DNA of 42,208 bases, taken from positions 1 through 42,208 of the forward strand of contig WJOT01000059.1 in the NCBI GenBank assembly GCA_009619095.1, read 5' to 3'. This document shows, piece after piece, positions 22,550 to 29,366 of the stretch (position 1 is its first letter; every line of letters begins with the position of its first letter). A program made the position numbers and the translations under genes. The DNA is from Clostridia bacterium. Lineage in GTDB: Bacteria > UBA6262 > WVXT01. Under the pieces are notes generated by a model. The model ran no database searches, was not told the origin of the DNA, and saw only the letters and a program-made list of their open reading frames with translations.

Positions 22550-23773
22550 TCATTGATATCTGTTTTGAATTAACCCTGTCCCTTTATTTAACATCTCAAG
22601 AAAAGTCTCCACAACTTTCGGATCGAACTGCGTTCCACTATTTTCTCTCAACTCTTTAATTGCTCTCTCTGGAGAATATGCTTTCCTATACGGTCTTTCT
22701 GATAACATAGCATCAAAGGCATCAGCTACAGCCATTATCCTTGCTCCTATATCTATTTCCCCGTCTCTGTAGTGGCCGGGATAACCTTTCCCATCATATC
22801 TTTCGTGATGCTGCTTGACCATATCAATTACTCCGTCAAGGAAAACAACCAGAGGTGCCAGTATTTCAGCACCTTTAAGCGAATGGAGCTTTATTTCTTC
22901 CCATTCTTCATCAGTTAATTTATCGGGCTTGAGGAGGATAAAGTCGTGCACTCCAATCTTACCAATATCGTGTAAATGGGAAGCCTGCCTGATAAGCTCT
23001 ACCCGCTCAGGAGGGAGTTTCATCGCTTCAGCAATAGCTACAGCGTATTCAGCCACCATCTCCGAATGTCTCCTGGTATAATGGTCACGCGCATCGATAG
23101 TAGCTGCTAAGGTGGTAATGGTGCGCATATAAAGATTGCTTAAACTCCTGTAAAGTCTAACATTTTCGATAACTATCGCTACCTGAGCAGCGATCTGCTT
23201 GAGCAATCGAAAGTCTTCCCGATTAAAGATTCTTCTCGTCTTTTTGTTGTTTACATTGATAACTCCTATAACCTTATTCTTTATAGCCAAAGGAACACTC
23301 ATTAGAGATTTATTATAATACTTCTCCTCATTACTCTTAGCAAAGCGAGTATCTTTCTCAATATTTTTCACCAAAATTGGTCTATTATGTTTTACTACCC
23401 AGCCCGAAATCTTATTTCCCACTTCAAGTTCTGTATCCTTCAAAATTTTTTGTTCCAGTCCCTTAGCACATTCAACTGATAACTTGCCAGTCTTATCATT
23501 TATTAAGAGAATAGAGCATATTTTCACATTCAGAATCGAACCCACCTTTTCCACAATTACCTTTAAAACATCCTTCATCTTCAACTTATTTGAAACATCT
23601 CTTTCTATCCTGTAGAGAAAAGATAGTGCCTTCGTCTTCTGCCTTATTTTTCTTGACAACTCTTTCCTGAGTTCTATCAGCTTACTATTGGTATTAACCA
23701 ACTCCGAGGTTTTCTCTCCCAACTCTTCTCCCAGCTCTCTTATTTTTCTGGCTAAATCTTCCTTTTCCATCAC
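22550..23773 (-). CDS. GAF + HD-GYP domain protein (putative cyclic-di-GMP phosphodiesterase)
   Basis: GAF region (VIVEKVGSILNVKICSILLIND...) then HD-GYP HLHDIGKIGVHDFILLKPDKLTDEEWEEIKLHSLKGAEIL...QHHERYDGKGYPGHYRDGEIDIGARIMAVADAFDAMLSERPYRKA. Confidence 0.93.
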   Translation of the reverse strand: MMEKEDLARKIRELGEELGEKTSELVNTNSKLIELRKELSRKIRQKTKALSFLYRIERDVSNKLKMKDVLKVIVEKVGSILNVKICSILLINDKTGKLSVECAKGLEQKILKDTELEVGNKISGWVVKHNRPILVKNIEKDTRFAKSNEEKYYNKSLMSVPLAIKNKVIGVINVNNKKTRRIFNREDFRLLKQIAAQVAIVIENVRLYRSLSNLYMRTITTLAATIDARDHYTRRHSEMVAEYAVAIAEAMKLPPERVELIRQASHLHDIGKIGVHDFILLKPDKLTDEEWEEIKLHSLKGAEILAPLVVFLDGVIDMVKQHHERYDGKGYPGHYRDGEIDIGARIMAVADAFDAMLSERPYRKAYSPERAIKELRENSGTQFDPKVVETFLEMLNKGTGLIQNRYQ

Positions 23774-23815
23774 TGGCTCCTAATAAAAATTCTCCCTCAA
23801 AGAATTCCCTCATCT

Positions 23816-23867
23816 GAAAAACAAAAAGCCGAATTACCAAACCTTAATAATCTTTGATAATTCGGCT
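23816..23867 (-). terminator. Intrinsic-terminator hairpin inside the 5' leader of the HD-GYP gene
   Basis: Minus strand AGCCGAATTA-TCAAAGATTATTAAGGTTTGG-TAATTCGGCT then TTTTTGTTTTT; no minus-strand gene lies immediately upstream, so it reads as a leader element. Confidence 0.65.
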
Positions 23868-23969
23868 ATAATCTATTTTTTGAACTCATGGCCCCTCTCC
23901 CGGTAAAACTAGATAGAAGTCAACCTTTATTTCCCCGGCGCACTATCCTCATCTTTTTCTTCTAAAAAG

Positions 23970-24021
23970 TTTATATCCAAAATATAACATTTGTGTAAAA
24001 AAGTTGTAAACTTTCTGTAAA
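23970..24021 (-). promoter_or_regulatory. Promoter plus three 11-bp-phased TTTACA half-sites facing the HD-GYP gene
   Basis: Minus strand TTTACA at 24021-24016, 24010-24005, 23999-23994; the last is 18 nt from TATAAA (23975-23970). Confidence 0.65.
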
Positions 24022-24044
24022 TTTTCCCTGCACCCACTTAAAAA

Positions 24045-24109
24045 TTAACAAAAAATTAACAAAAAATTAACATTTTCTTAACCTATCCATAACATAAGTA
24101 GTTTATACT
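24045..24109 (+). promoter_or_regulatory. Promoter plus four 11-bp-phased TTAAC[A/C] half-sites facing the surface island
   Basis: TTAACA at 24045, 24056, 24067 and TTAACC at 24078 (exact 11-bp steps), then TATACT at 24104-24109. Confidence 0.65.
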
Positions 24110-24115
24110 TTTAGT

Positions 24116-24228
24116 GACAGATGACAATGGAGACAGGCAAAGCCATAAGGTCATAACCAAGCTTACCTTGTTCTACCAGTATTCCAGGGGAACATATGGC
24201 TTAATGGGGATAAGCTTGGTTTTTTTTG
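24116..24228 (+). promoter_or_regulatory. Candidate attenuator/riboswitch-like leader ending in an intrinsic terminator
   Basis: AAGCCATA (24140-24147) pairs with TATGGCTT (24195-24202); ACCAAGCTTA (24156-24165) pairs with TAAGCTTGGT (24211-24220) followed by T7; the helices interleave 1-2-1'-2'. Confidence 0.6.
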
Positions 24229-24250
24229 TTGAAAAATGGAGGTAAGTAAA

Positions 24251-25390
24251 ATGAAAAAACAAAGTTTATTAATGGTATTGTTGATGTGTTTGGTATTTGG
24301 AAGTAGCGTGGTATTTGGAAAAGCAGTGACAGGAGTAGCGATTCTAAACCAGGCAATAGGAGTGAGGCAATTAGGCATGGGAGAAGTAGCCACAGGTCTA
24401 TCAGATGATGCAGCAGCAATGCATTATAACCCAGCAGGTATTGCCACAGTAAGAAACATAGAACTTAATGCAATGTATCATCAGAACATTATTGATACGC
24501 GGAATGAAGCACTAAACCTCATTTATCCATTAAAAGGAGGGCTACTCTTAGGGAACAAAGCAAGTATCGGCCTGGGAGTACTTGCCTATCAAGGAGGAGA
24601 TATTGAGTGGATTCAGTTAAATCCAGATGAAACAATAAAGTCGAGGGAAACATTAAAAGCAGAGAGTGACTATCAGATAGGGCTATGTTACGCTCAGGAG
24701 ATAGCCAGCTTTTCAGGAAATACCTATGTAGGAGTAATGGTAAAGTGGATTCAATCAAAATTAGTGGAGGAATACACAGCAGGGGCATTCGGGATAGATA
24801 TGGGAGTTTTGCATAAGGTAGGAGGGTTTGGCTTAGGAATGGCGCTACAGAACATGGGAACAGGGATGAAGTTCATAGAAGTAGCAGACAGTCTACCATT
24901 TACCATAAGATTAGGAGGAAGTTATGAGAGAAAACTCGGTAAGATAGTAAAGATGGTAGCAGGTGTAGATGGGATAAAGATAAAGAATGATGATATGAGA
25001 TACAACTTGGGAGGGGAATGCTGGATAGCCGATATCTTAGGGATAAGAGCAGGGTATAAGATAAAGGATGAAGATAAGGTAAGTATAGGAGCAAGTATAA
25101 GGTATAAATGGGTGCAGTTGGATTATGGGTATAAGATGATGGATGTATTCAGCAATACCCACCAGGTGGCAATCACATTACGGATGGGCTCTCCTGAGAT
25201 AAGTAAACAAGCAAAAATTAAACAGATGAAGAAGCATTATATGCGAGCGACGACATATTACAAGAAAAGGATGTACAAAGAAGCAATAAGTGAGTGGGAG
25301 AAAGTATTAAAGATAGACCCTAATCATAAACAATCAAAAGAAGCGATAGAGAAAGCAAAGAAGAAGATGGAACAGACGGCAAAGAAATGA
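24251..25390 (+). CDS. UPF0164/PorV-like outer-membrane beta-barrel protein with a C-terminal TPR-like extension
   Basis: Signal peptide MKKQSLLMVLLMCLVFGSSVVFG; AIGVRQLGMGEVATGLSDDAAAMHYNPAGIATV; repeated amphipathic strands; tail YYKKRMYKEAISEWEKVLKIDPNHKQS. Start set to ATG after GGAGG. Confidence 0.85.
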   Translation: MKKQSLLMVLLMCLVFGSSVVFGKAVTGVAILNQAIGVRQLGMGEVATGLSDDAAAMHYNPAGIATVRNIELNAMYHQNIIDTRNEALNLIYPLKGGLLLGNKASIGLGVLAYQGGDIEWIQLNPDETIKSRETLKAESDYQIGLCYAQEIASFSGNTYVGVMVKWIQSKLVEEYTAGAFGIDMGVLHKVGGFGLGMALQNMGTGMKFIEVADSLPFTIRLGGSYERKLGKIVKMVAGVDGIKIKNDDMRYNLGGECWIADILGIRAGYKIKDEDKVSIGASIRYKWVQLDYGYKMMDVFSNTHQVAITLRMGSPEISKQAKIKQMKKHYMRATTYYKKRMYKEAISEWEKVLKIDPNHKQSKEAIEKAKKKMEQTAKK

Positions 25391-25403
25391 CAGGAAGGAA
25401 AAG

Positions 25404-25682
25404 ATGAAAACAAAATTACACATAGTTCTTATCATGACCCTAAGCCTGGCATGCCTGACACTACTGCAGGCTGTGTGTCTGGGAGTAGACTATAAGCTCA
25501 GTAATAATGTAAATGTTGCATGGAGGATTGGATATAATACAAAGACCACTGATGTTGGAGGATTAGGTGGGTGTAGTCTTGGTTTAGGTGGTAATTTTAA
25601 AAGGTATAGGGTAGACTATGCCTTTGTCCCCTTTGGCGATTTAGGAGATACACACAGAATATCCATTAGCATCAGTTTTTAA
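25404..25682 (+). CDS. 92-aa secreted protein resembling the terminal strands of a PorV/UPF0164-type barrel
   Basis: Signal peptide, then KLSNNVNVAWRIGYNTKTTDVGGLGGCSLGLGGNFKRYRVDYAFVPFGDLGDTHRISISISF; 13-nt gap after the upstream CDS. Confidence 0.6.
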   Translation: MKTKLHIVLIMTLSLACLTLLQAVCLGVDYKLSNNVNVAWRIGYNTKTTDVGGLGGCSLGLGGNFKRYRVDYAFVPFGDLGDTHRISISISF

Positions 25683-25771
25683 TATGAATCAAAGGGACAG
25701 GCTATCTTTTCGAAAATAATATTGAGTTTTAAATCAAAATTATAATGATATATTTTATAGGGGGTTACTAA

Positions 25772-28195
25772 ATGAAAAGTAGAATTTTAGTTTCTGTAAT
25801 AATTGGTTTTCTGGTTATGGCGTTCAGTTCCACTTTTGCCGTAGATTCGAGTAATGTAGACCTAATCGGCAAACTTGCTGGGGGTGTCCCTGAAGATGTA
25901 TTTGTTCAGGGGGACTATGCTTATGTTGCTGCTTTTGGTATCTTGTCGATACTGGATGTTTCGGACCCACAAAACCCAATACAGGTTTCTTGGTATGATA
26001 GTTCTATTAGAGCTAGTGGAGTCTATGTCTCTGGTAATTATGCTTATGTTGCAGATGCCACCTCTGGATTGAGAATAATAGATATAAGTAATCCCTCAAA
26101 CCCTTTTGAGGTGGGTTATTACGACACCGATGGCGATGATGCCAATGATGTCTATGTATCTGGAGATTATGCCTATGTAGCAATTGGGAATGCTGGCCTG
26201 GTAATAATAGATATAAGTAATCCCTCAAACCCTTCTAAGGCAGGTTCTTTTGATACTCCAGGCAATGCTTACGAAGTCTATGTTTCAAGTAATTATGCCT
26301 TTGTTGCAGATGGTGGGTCTGGTTTGAGGGTAATAGATATAAGCGACCCTTCGAATCCTTCTGAGGAGGGTTTTTATGATACCCTTGGCTATGCTTATGG
26401 AGTCTATGTATCCAGTTATTGTGCCTTTGTTGCAGATGGTGGGTCTGGTTTGAGGGTTATAAATATAAGCAACCCTTCGAATCCTTATGAAGAGGGTTTT
26501 TATGATTCCAATTTTCCCTCTACTCGCGGGGTTTTTGTTTCTGGTGATTACGCATATATAGCTGATTACTGGAATGGCTTAAGGGTAATAGATATAACCG
26601 ATCCCTCAAATCCCTTTCAAGCAGGTTCTCACGATACACCTGGGAAGGCATTAGGGATTTATATTTCCGGAAACTATGCGTATGTCGCTGATTGTTGGCG
26701 TGGTTTAAGAATAGTAGATATAAGTACTCCATCATCTCCAGATGAAGAGGGTTACTATGATACCCCTGGACAGGCTAGTAGAATTTATGTATCTAATCAT
26801 TATGCATATGTAGGTGATATAGACTCTGGCTTAAGGATATTAGATATAAGTGACCCTTCGAATCCTTCTGAGGTCGGTTCTTGTGATACCCCTGGGTTTG
26901 CTTCTGGAGTCTTTATTTCTGGAAACTATGCCTATGTTGCAGATGGTTGGTCTGGCTTAAGGGTAATACATGTAGGCACTCCTTCAAATCCATTTGAGGT
27001 GGGTCATTATGATACTCCTGGGTGGGCTAGTGATGTTTATGTATCAGGAGACTATGCCTATGTTGCAGATGAAGATTCTGGTTTAAGGATAATAGATATA
27101 AGTGATTCCTCAAATCCTTCTGAGGAGGGTTTTTATGATACTCCTGGCCAGGCAGTAGGAGTTTGTGTCTCAGGAGACTATGCCTATGTTGCTGATAGAG
27201 ATTCTGGCTTGAGGATATTAGATATAAGCAATCCTTCAAATCCTTTTGAAGCTGGTTTTTATGATACCCATGGGGATGCTCATGGAGTCTATGTCTATAA
27301 TCAGTATGCATATGTAGCTGATGGAAATTCTGGATTAGGGATAATAGATGTAAGCAATCTTTCATCTATATATGAGGTTAATTATTATGATACAGATGGC
27401 ATTACTTGGGGAGTTTATGTTTCTGGAGATAATGCATATATTGCTGATTACTGGAGTGGTTTAAGGATAATAAACATATATGACCCTTTATCGCTATCTG
27501 AGGTAGGGTATTACGATACCCCTGGGTGGGCTATTGGTGTTTATGTCTCCGGTGATTATGCTTATGTTGCTGATTCTGCGTCTGGATTATGGGTTTTTGA
27601 ATACATAGATTTAATTCCACCTAATCAACCTCCTGTTGCCAATGCTGGGCCGGACCAGACGGTAATTGACGAGGACAACAATGGCGAAGAGCAGGTCACC
27701 CTTGATGGCTCTGCTTCACAAGACCCCGATGGTACAATTGCAAGCTTTGTCTGGAGTGAAGATGGTTTACAGATTGCTACTGGTATAAATCCAACGGTAA
27801 TCCTATCCACTGGAACACATTCAATTACACTCACTGTAACCGATAATGGAGGGTTAAAAGATACTGATAGTGTAACCATTAAAGCGTTAGAAGAAGGTAA
27901 AGGATTCGGAGAACTGCCGACAGGTTGCTACAACAATGTCTTTAATCCTACAAAAGGAGAAAAAGCATTAATTGTAGTAAAACTATCAAAACAAGCTCAT
28001 GTAAGATTAAATCTTTATAATGCAAGAGGCAATAGAATAAGAGAACTCGCAGATGAAGAGAAAGAAGCTGGGACACATAAGTACTACTGGGATGGTAAGA
28101 GTGACAATGGCAATGTAGTTGGCAGTGGGTTATATTTTGTCCATATACAGGCGGGGGATTATAAGAAGACAAAGAAGATTGTTGTGGTGAAATAA
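25772..28195 (+). CDS. Secreted LVIVD-repeat beta-propeller protein with PKD-like domain and FlgD/T9SS-like C-terminal domain
   Basis: Signal peptide MKSRILVSVIIGFLVMAFSSTFA; 14 repeats of ~42 aa (GDYAYVADxxSGLRIIDISNPSNPxExGxYDTPG); PKD-like PPVANAGPDQTV...; CTD ends GLYFVHIQAGDYKKTKKIVVVK. Confidence 0.88.
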   Translation: MKSRILVSVIIGFLVMAFSSTFAVDSSNVDLIGKLAGGVPEDVFVQGDYAYVAAFGILSILDVSDPQNPIQVSWYDSSIRASGVYVSGNYAYVADATSGLRIIDISNPSNPFEVGYYDTDGDDANDVYVSGDYAYVAIGNAGLVIIDISNPSNPSKAGSFDTPGNAYEVYVSSNYAFVADGGSGLRVIDISDPSNPSEEGFYDTLGYAYGVYVSSYCAFVADGGSGLRVINISNPSNPYEEGFYDSNFPSTRGVFVSGDYAYIADYWNGLRVIDITDPSNPFQAGSHDTPGKALGIYISGNYAYVADCWRGLRIVDISTPSSPDEEGYYDTPGQASRIYVSNHYAYVGDIDSGLRILDISDPSNPSEVGSCDTPGFASGVFISGNYAYVADGWSGLRVIHVGTPSNPFEVGHYDTPGWASDVYVSGDYAYVADEDSGLRIIDISDSSNPSEEGFYDTPGQAVGVCVSGDYAYVADRDSGLRILDISNPSNPFEAGFYDTHGDAHGVYVYNQYAYVADGNSGLGIIDVSNLSSIYEVNYYDTDGITWGVYVSGDNAYIADYWSGLRIINIYDPLSLSEVGYYDTPGWAIGVYVSGDYAYVADSASGLWVFEYIDLIPPNQPPVANAGPDQTVIDEDNNGEEQVTLDGSASQDPDGTIASFVWSEDGLQIATGINPTVILSTGTHSITLTVTDNGGLKDTDSVTIKALEEGKGFGELPTGCYNNVFNPTKGEKALIVVKLSKQAHVRLNLYNARGNRIRELADEEKEAGTHKYYWDGKSDNGNVVGSGLYFVHIQAGDYKKTKKIVVVK
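25880..27605 (+). repeat. 14 degenerate ~126-bp tandem repeats coding LVIVD units
   Basis: Repeated TCTGG(a/t)GA(t/c)TATGC(c/t)TATGTTGC(a/t)GAT ... ATAGATATAAG(t/c)(a/g)A(t/c)CC(c/t)TC. Confidence 0.85.
27926..28192 (+). repeat. C-terminal domain cassette copy 1 (89 codons)
   Basis: CYNNVFNPTKGEKALIVVKLSKQAHVRLNLYNARGNRIRELADEEKEAGTHKYYWDGK...; near-identical to 29082-29348. Confidence 0.9.
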
Positions 28196-28199
28196 AGAT

Positions 28200-29351
28200 T
28201 TGGAGGTGGATAAAATTAAAAAACAGAGATTATTAATGATATTGTTAACGTGTTTGGTATTTGGAACCAGCCTGGCATTTGCCAAAATTGGAGATATACA
28301 GGTAAATGAAGGTGTGACCTTAGAAGTGCCTCTTTCTGCTTATGACCCTGATGGAGATAACTTAAGTTTTTCCTTAAGTAATAATCCTAGCTTTGTTAGT
28401 TTAATTGATAATGGTGATGGCACAGGCTTATTAATTATCAGCCCTGACTTTGATGATGCCGGAACCTATACACAAGTAAGAATCACAGTTACTGATGATG
28501 GCTCACCTCCTTTATCTGACTATGAGGAGATTACCATTACTGTCAATGATGTTTCCCTTACCTATACTATCACCGCCACAGCAGGTCCAGGTGGTTCTAT
28601 TGCCCCCAGTGGCGCAGTTACAGTAAATCATGGAGCTAACCAGACCTTTACCATCATTCCAGATCCAGGATACCATATTGCTGATGTCTTAGTAGATGGT
28701 TCATCTGTGGGAGCAGTACCTACCTATACCTTTACTAATGTCACAGCTGACCATACTATTGAGGCTATATTTGCCCTGGATAACCGTCCTCCAGTACTTG
28801 AGCCAATAGGTGATAAATCAGTCAGAGTTGGTGAGACATTAACTTTCACAGTCAATGCCACAGACCCTGATGAAGACCCGATAACCTATTCAGTCGAGGG
28901 ACTGCCAGGTGGTGCAACATTCGAAAATCAGACATTCACCTGGACACCAGAAGGCAGCGATGTGGGTGAGCATCAGGTAACATTTACTGCAAGTGATGAT
29001 GAAGAACTTTCCCATAGTGAGACAATAATAATCATCACAATAGAGGGATATAAAACAAAGCCAGATAAAACAGAACTTAAATGTTATAACAATGTGTTTA
29101 ATCCAACAAAAGGAGAAAAAGCACTAATCGTAGTGGAACTACCAAACCAAGTTCATGTAAAATTAGGTCTGTATAATGCAAGAGGCAATAGGATAAAAGA
29201 ACTCGCAGATGAAGAAAAGGAACCGGGGACACACAAATATTATTGGGATGGGAAGAACGGTTCAGGCGAGGTCGTTGGCAGTGGATTATACTTTGTTCAT
29301 ATACAGGCGGGAGATTACAAGAAGACAAAGAAGATTGTGGTGGTGAAATAA
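28200..29351 (+). CDS. Secreted cadherin/Ig-like protein with InlB-type B-repeat and FlgD/T9SS-like C-terminal domain; start probably ATT at 28215
   Basis: Signal peptide KKQRLLMILLTCLVFGTSLAFA; ITATAGPGGSIAPSGAVTVNHGANQTFTIIPDPGYHIADVLVDG; He_PIG-like PPVLEPIGDKSVRVGETLTFTVNATDPDEDPITYSVEGLPGGATF; shared CTD. Confidence 0.82.
   Translation: MEVDKIKKQRLLMILLTCLVFGTSLAFAKIGDIQVNEGVTLEVPLSAYDPDGDNLSFSLSNNPSFVSLIDNGDGTGLLIISPDFDDAGTYTQVRITVTDDGSPPLSDYEEITITVNDVSLTYTITATAGPGGSIAPSGAVTVNHGANQTFTIIPDPGYHIADVLVDGSSVGAVPTYTFTNVTADHTIEAIFALDNRPPVLEPIGDKSVRVGETLTFTVNATDPDEDPITYSVEGLPGGATFENQTFTWTPEGSDVGEHQVTFTASDDEELSHSETIIIITIEGYKTKPDKTELKCYNNVFNPTKGEKALIVVELPNQVHVKLGLYNARGNRIKELADEEKEPGTHKYYWDGKNGSGEVVGSGLYFVHIQAGDYKKTKKIVVVK
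29082..29348 (+). repeat. C-terminal domain cassette copy 2 (89 codons)
   Basis: CYNNVFNPTKGEKALIVVELPNQVHVKLGLYNARGNRIKELADEEKEPGTHKYYWDGK... Confidence 0.9.
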
Positions 29352-29366
29352 TACCTAAAAACAGGA

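Follow-up and report, generated by a model that had tools for sequence, protein, structure and literature searches.

The leader of the PorV-like gene at 24116-24228 of the window (the whole stretch of 42,208 nucleotides that was analysed) had been put forward in a sequence-only reading as a candidate novel riboswitch or attenuator, and the question is whether this RNA senses a ligand or controls the gene in some simpler way. We found an intrinsic terminator in the position of an attenuator. The term "attenuator-like leader terminator" is well supported, since a strong terminator stands between a promoter and the PorV ribosome-binding site, while a new riboswitch class is unlikely.

Genome context and promoter

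The window belongs to a 2.0-Mb draft genome (G000), for which the relatives search gave three species of the same genus (G001-G003) and two of the same order (G004 and G005); genomes found beyond these shared the domain alone. The gene behind the leader (24251-25390, + strand) encodes a PorV-like/UPF0164 outer-membrane protein with a C-terminal TPR (Pfam PF03687, 1.6e-6; TPR_2, 4.1e-6), and its Shine-Dalgarno GGAGG is located at 24238-24242, just 3' of the terminator. It is followed by a 92-aa ORF, for which no Pfam match was found, then by genes for an LVIVD beta-propeller protein and an Ig/PKD protein. Both of these proteins carry FlgD_ig/Por_Secre_tail-type C-termini, which suggests that the PorV/LVIVD/PKD genes form a type IX-like secretion cassette. 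Upstream lies a divergent gene for a GAF/HD-GYP protein (22550-23773, - strand). As had been noted from the letters alone, no + strand gene precedes the leader, so the leader terminator does not close another gene.

The promoter region contains five direct repeats spaced by 11 bp (24045-24094, + strand), namely TTAACA, TTAACA, TTAACA, TTAACC and ATAACA at 24045, 24056, 24067, 24078 and 24089, followed by the -10 element TATACT (24104-24109). Transcription is predicted to start at about 24116, some 40 nt before the terminator arm. Repeats with such 11-bp spacing are typical of PhoB/OmpR-family regulators, and we take the TTAACA repeats to be comparable with a PhoB/PhoP box; literature searches gave no match for a Pho box of TTAACA type. 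In four genomes of the genus, the three-repeat pattern TTAACA-N5 had 29 matches versus 0 for the reversed control, and OmpR/PhoB-type DNA-binding domains were found in all of the four genomes searched, so that an OmpR/PhoB-type regulator probably binds the repeats of the PorV promoter. The orthologue in G002 has a similar promoter segment with TATAAT at comparable spacing from the repeats, and other repeat-array promoters of the genus carry TATACTT. Some of these arrays drive c-di-GMP-I riboswitch leaders.

An intrinsic terminator in the leader

Helix 2 of the sequence-only reading pairs ACCAAGCTTA (24156-24165) with TAAGCTTGGT (24211-24220). On checking the sequence, all the named helices were where they had been placed, in the order 1-2-1'-2', and helix 2 is even longer than described, with 11 perfect pairs (24155-24165/24211-24221). 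An inner CCUUGUU/AAUGGGG pairing lengthens it to a 17-bp stem with one bulged A and a small inner hairpin, which together make up the terminator hairpin at 24155-24221 on the + strand. The T tract reported after helix 2 was also recovered, as a U8 tract at 24220-24227 (one T shorter in G003). The folding energy of 24155-24228 is -25.9 kcal/mol (z = -3.53 versus shuffled sequence), and in the complete leader (-32.8 kcal/mol) the terminator has a pairing probability of 0.99. When 24116-24228 was shuffled 2000 times with its dinucleotides preserved, 0.3% of the shuffles had a perfect stem of at least 10 bp and 6.9% one of at least 8 bp, so helix 2 is clearly non-random. A stable hairpin with a U-rich tract directly after it is an intrinsic terminator, and its place between the repeat promoter with its -10 element and the PorV Shine-Dalgarno is that of an attenuator, given the predicted start. 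The terminated RNA is expected to be about 110 nt long, with its 3' end at the U8 tract. A consensus terminator scan did not list this terminator, as expected from the scan's loop limit of 8 nt.

Competing pairings are weak

Helix 1, the candidate antiterminator, joins AAGCCATA (24140-24147) to TATGGCTT (24195-24202), the latter lying within the terminator loop and being identical in G003; both arms are on the + strand, and sequence and folding favour the helix weakly. In separate shuffles, 1.8% gave a perfect 8-bp match of the 5' part to the terminator loop (p about 0.02), which makes helix 1 only marginally non-random. When it was forced in the full leader, the energy was -21.4 vs -32.8 kcal/mol, a cost of 11.4 kcal/mol. 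Folding of full and truncated leaders, which had been suggested as a check, also lent little to the switch: among the prefixes sampled, the pairing probability of helix 1 peaked briefly at 0.32 (prefix ending at 24205), and prefixes ending at 24175-24210 showed no excess structure over shuffles (z -0.5 to +0.2). The other local pairings proposed, ATGAC (24121-24125) with GTCAT (24150-24154) and TGTTC with GAACA, are present, the former in a weak 5' hairpin, ATGAC-A-ATGG(12-nt loop)CCAT-AAG-GTCAT, at 24121-24154 (-6.5 kcal/mol, z -1.57). An H-type pseudoknot with helices 1 and 2 formed together is unlikely on geometry, because the 8-nt connector (24148-24155) would need to span the 17-bp stem. 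The attenuator idea stands as far as the position of the terminator goes; its proposed antiterminator is disfavoured on energy. With alternative pairings this weak, read-through would be either fixed or raised in trans, and in the folding model the terminator should win over helix 1 unless something in trans intervenes.

No recognisable aptamer

At gathering score, a cmscan of the window against Rfam gave a tRNA alone and left the leader unmatched. Searching the leader against the Rfam models at E<=10, another of the suggested checks, returned only three sub-threshold eukaryotic models, and no credible match to a known family was among them; assignment to a described riboswitch class was rejected for want of any Rfam aptamer match.

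The stretch GGCAAAGCC (24136-24144, + strand) had been called faintly reminiscent of part of the c-di-GMP-I aptamer. This likeness was worth testing because c-di-GMP-I riboswitches abound in the genus: G000 has 16 confident ones over the family cut-off plus one below it, and G001-G003 have 8-16 each among the matches listed. In the genus, these switches with their terminator platforms precede many signal-peptide-bearing proteins, including PorV-like ones. The loci in G000 (for example, L063-L077) include a tandem pair (L065). The consensus as seen in the genus is GGCAAACC..GAAA..GCAAAGCC..GCCGGGUUGCCGA. We built a genus covariance model (R1) from 11 aptamers of G000 and ran it with filters off over 23600-24400, where no + strand match in 24116-24228 was obtained up to E=10. 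The best match in this range reached 5.3 bits and fell outside the leader, and the one overlapping the leader end had 2.2 bits on the opposite strand (E 2.9), compared with 27-90 bits for the c-di-GMP-I loci of the genus under the same model. RF01051 itself gave no match to the leader either, and membership in that family was rejected with both models. The resemblance is thus superficial, as the genus covariance model found nothing credible. Neither Rfam nor the genus c-di-GMP-I model nor a covariance model made from the leader gave any positive sign of an aptamer in it.

Distribution of the leader among relatives

No further copy of the leader was found in its own genome. A search of 60 related or other genomes found it in G003 only, other matches being short fragments with E 4e-4 or weaker; viral contigs gave no copy. 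The leader covariance model matched only itself in six genomes, missing the half-leader of G003 because of a run of N there. PorV relatives among GTDB genome contigs were limited to the contig of G003, and the PorV orthologue occurs in three genomes. In G003 (WVXT01000070, L062), 36 of 37 comparable columns are identical from AACATATGG up to and including the T tract, and the 5' half of the leader is an assembly gap of 57 N, so that conservation of the stem is judged by the 3' arm. Identity over the whole intergenic region is 82%, a background that includes functional sites, and 37 columns are few; the excess conservation is for these reasons only suggestive.

The closest relative is G002 (purA identity to G000: G002 98%, G001 96%, G003 94%; HD-GYP DNA identity: G002 96.5%, G003 89.1%), whose PorV protein shares 87% amino acid identity. 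Its promoter is kept and runs straight into AATGGAGACAGG-TGAAATG, without the leader terminator. In the window, AATGGAGACAGG is kept at 24126 and a second AATGGAGG stands at 24235, so the element is flanked by an AATGGAG repeat, compatible with either insertion or deletion. The presence of the element in G000 and also in G003, which is more distant than G002, makes loss in G002 the simpler and favoured reading. Insertion of a mobile element was considered and rejected, there being no second copy and insertion being less parsimonious than loss. In G001, the whole PorV/LVIVD/PKD cassette is missing (about 24034-29365 of the window vs L118, G001:C109). There the next ABC-transporter gene abuts the HD-GYP promoter, a clean presence/absence difference of about 5.3 kb.

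The leader terminator thus appears lineage-restricted (G000 and, in part, G003). Because G002 does without it, the element is dispensable, and termination may amount to a fixed damping of expression instead of a regulatory step. The proposal of a novel riboswitch was not sustained, given the lack of a credible Rfam match, of excess upstream structure and of a second copy, and the absence of the element from G002.

A short leader ORF and the neighbouring HD-GYP leader

A putative 11-codon ORF, MTMETGKAIRS*, can be read at 24121-24156 (+ strand), without a Shine-Dalgarno, and its stop codon (24154-24156) falls at the base of the terminator stem. On the other strand, the leader of the HD-GYP gene (24021-23774, - strand) has TTTACA-N5 repeats at 24021, 24010 and 23999, a -10 element TATATT, a Shine-Dalgarno, a 7-codon ORF MSS(K/R)NRL* (23889-23866) and a terminator hairpin (23867-23827; -17 to -19 kcal/mol) followed by a T run. 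The stop of this ORF overlaps the base of the hairpin. All four species of the genus share this conserved arrangement of repeat promoter, Shine-Dalgarno, 7-codon ORF and terminator, for which no credible Rfam match was found. Judged from sequence, the HD-GYP leader would be a better-supported attenuator candidate than the PorV leader.

Explanations for the PorV leader

We consider it likely that the 5'-UTR intrinsic terminator attenuates the PorV-like gene, and probably also the genes for secreted proteins behind it. RNA polymerase would start at about 24116 from the 11-bp direct-repeat promoter, probably under an OmpR/PhoB-type regulator, and make about 110 nt, after which the hairpin 24155-24221 with its U8 tract would release most transcripts. 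The fraction reading through would be translated from GGAGG at 24238. This fraction may be fixed, or it may be raised in trans by a ribosome translating the short leader ORF or by an antitermination factor, not by a recognisable aptamer. What is observed directly is the hairpin with its T tract, their location between the gene and promoter-like sequence, and a 3' half that is conserved in a sister species; the start site is inferred, as are in vivo termination and the setting of the read-through fraction by some factor, and regulation by the terminator is plausible. The genus has the same layout of promoter, leader terminator and PorV or secreted-protein gene at other sites, there with a c-di-GMP-I aptamer ahead of it.

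The strongest rival, which we hold possible but do not favour, is a fixed, unregulated terminator that only lowers expression and whose gain or retention in some species is due to drift. It fits the dispensability in G002, the weakness of alternative structures and the fact that a conserved upstream RNA cannot be demonstrated, but the near-identity of the 3' half in G003 against its less conserved surroundings suggests that the element is maintained. Leader-peptide attenuation, in which a ribosome on MTMETGKAIRS* reaches the stop and blocks the 5' arm of the terminator, is rather unlikely. The stop sits exactly at the stem base, and the divergent HD-GYP leader is built in the same way, its Shine-Dalgarno being clear and its ORF kept in four species; however, no Shine-Dalgarno was found before 24121, the 5' UTR ahead of the ORF would be only about 5 nt, the peptide has no run of a diagnostic amino acid, and the ORF is absent from G002 and covered by the N gap in G003. 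An independent small RNA gene of about 110 nt, from which the PorV gene is reached by read-through, seems improbable: the unit does have its own promoter and terminator, but in G002 the same promoter serves the PorV gene directly, and neither a second copy nor an Rfam family was found for the RNA.

Ligand sensing is less probable again. A new riboswitch or ligand-sensing attenuator would need a small molecule that stabilises or destroys an antiterminator, either helix 1 or GGAGACAGG with CCTTGTTCTACC. The interleaved complementary segments, the transient rise of helix 1 in truncated leaders and the many riboswitch-controlled terminators ahead of similar genes speak for it, and the thiS motif/HMP-PP riboswitch (PMC7266159) is a precedent for an aptamer that lies inside a terminator stem. 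Against this, the RNA ahead of the terminator arm is only about 40 nt long and no more stably folded than shuffled sequence, the energy cost of helix 1 is high, Rfam gave nothing credible, the covariance model found no homologue of this single-copy leader, and the closest relative lacks the element; we regard it as very improbable. Marginally less credible still is a compact unclassified RNA sensor within the terminator, with 24126-24155 and the loop as a ligand- or ion-stabilised antiterminator regulating the PorV-like secretion gene; if true, it would act where c-di-GMP-I riboswitches serve paralogous sites. The least probable of all, close to negligible, is a diverged or truncated c-di-GMP-I riboswitch. 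The motif likeness of GGCAAAGCC, the abundance of such switches in the genus, some of them ahead of PorV-like genes, and the HD-GYP gene next door favour it, but neither the genus model nor RF01051 recognises the leader.

The element in the PorV leader is, on present evidence, one lineage-restricted leader terminator, and its setting is of more interest. Control of genes for outer-membrane and secreted proteins in this uncultured genus takes place at leader terminators, for the most part through c-di-GMP-I riboswitches, and goes along with promoters of the 11-bp-repeat type. With a terminator but no aptamer, the PorV gene offers a natural comparison for the gain and loss of such control; its cassette is missing from one sibling species (G001), and the terminator from another (G002).

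Comparison with known systems

The PorV leader resembles a generic 5'-UTR terminator/attenuator in its promoter, short leader, hairpin with U tract, Shine-Dalgarno and gene, and in its competing upstream complementarity, but it differs in having no demonstrated antiterminator, sensor or leader peptide and in being phylogenetically narrow. With the c-di-GMP-I (GEMM) riboswitches of RF01051 it shares the genus, the PorV-like or secreted gene type, the intrinsic-terminator platform and the short GGCAAAGCC likeness, whereas the aptamer, the rest of the consensus and a credible covariance-model match are missing. The thiS motif/HMP-PP riboswitch differs in its unrelated gene, and the PorV leader has neither an Rfam sequence match to it nor evidence of conservation; what the two have in common is that the terminator itself makes up most of the leader RNA.
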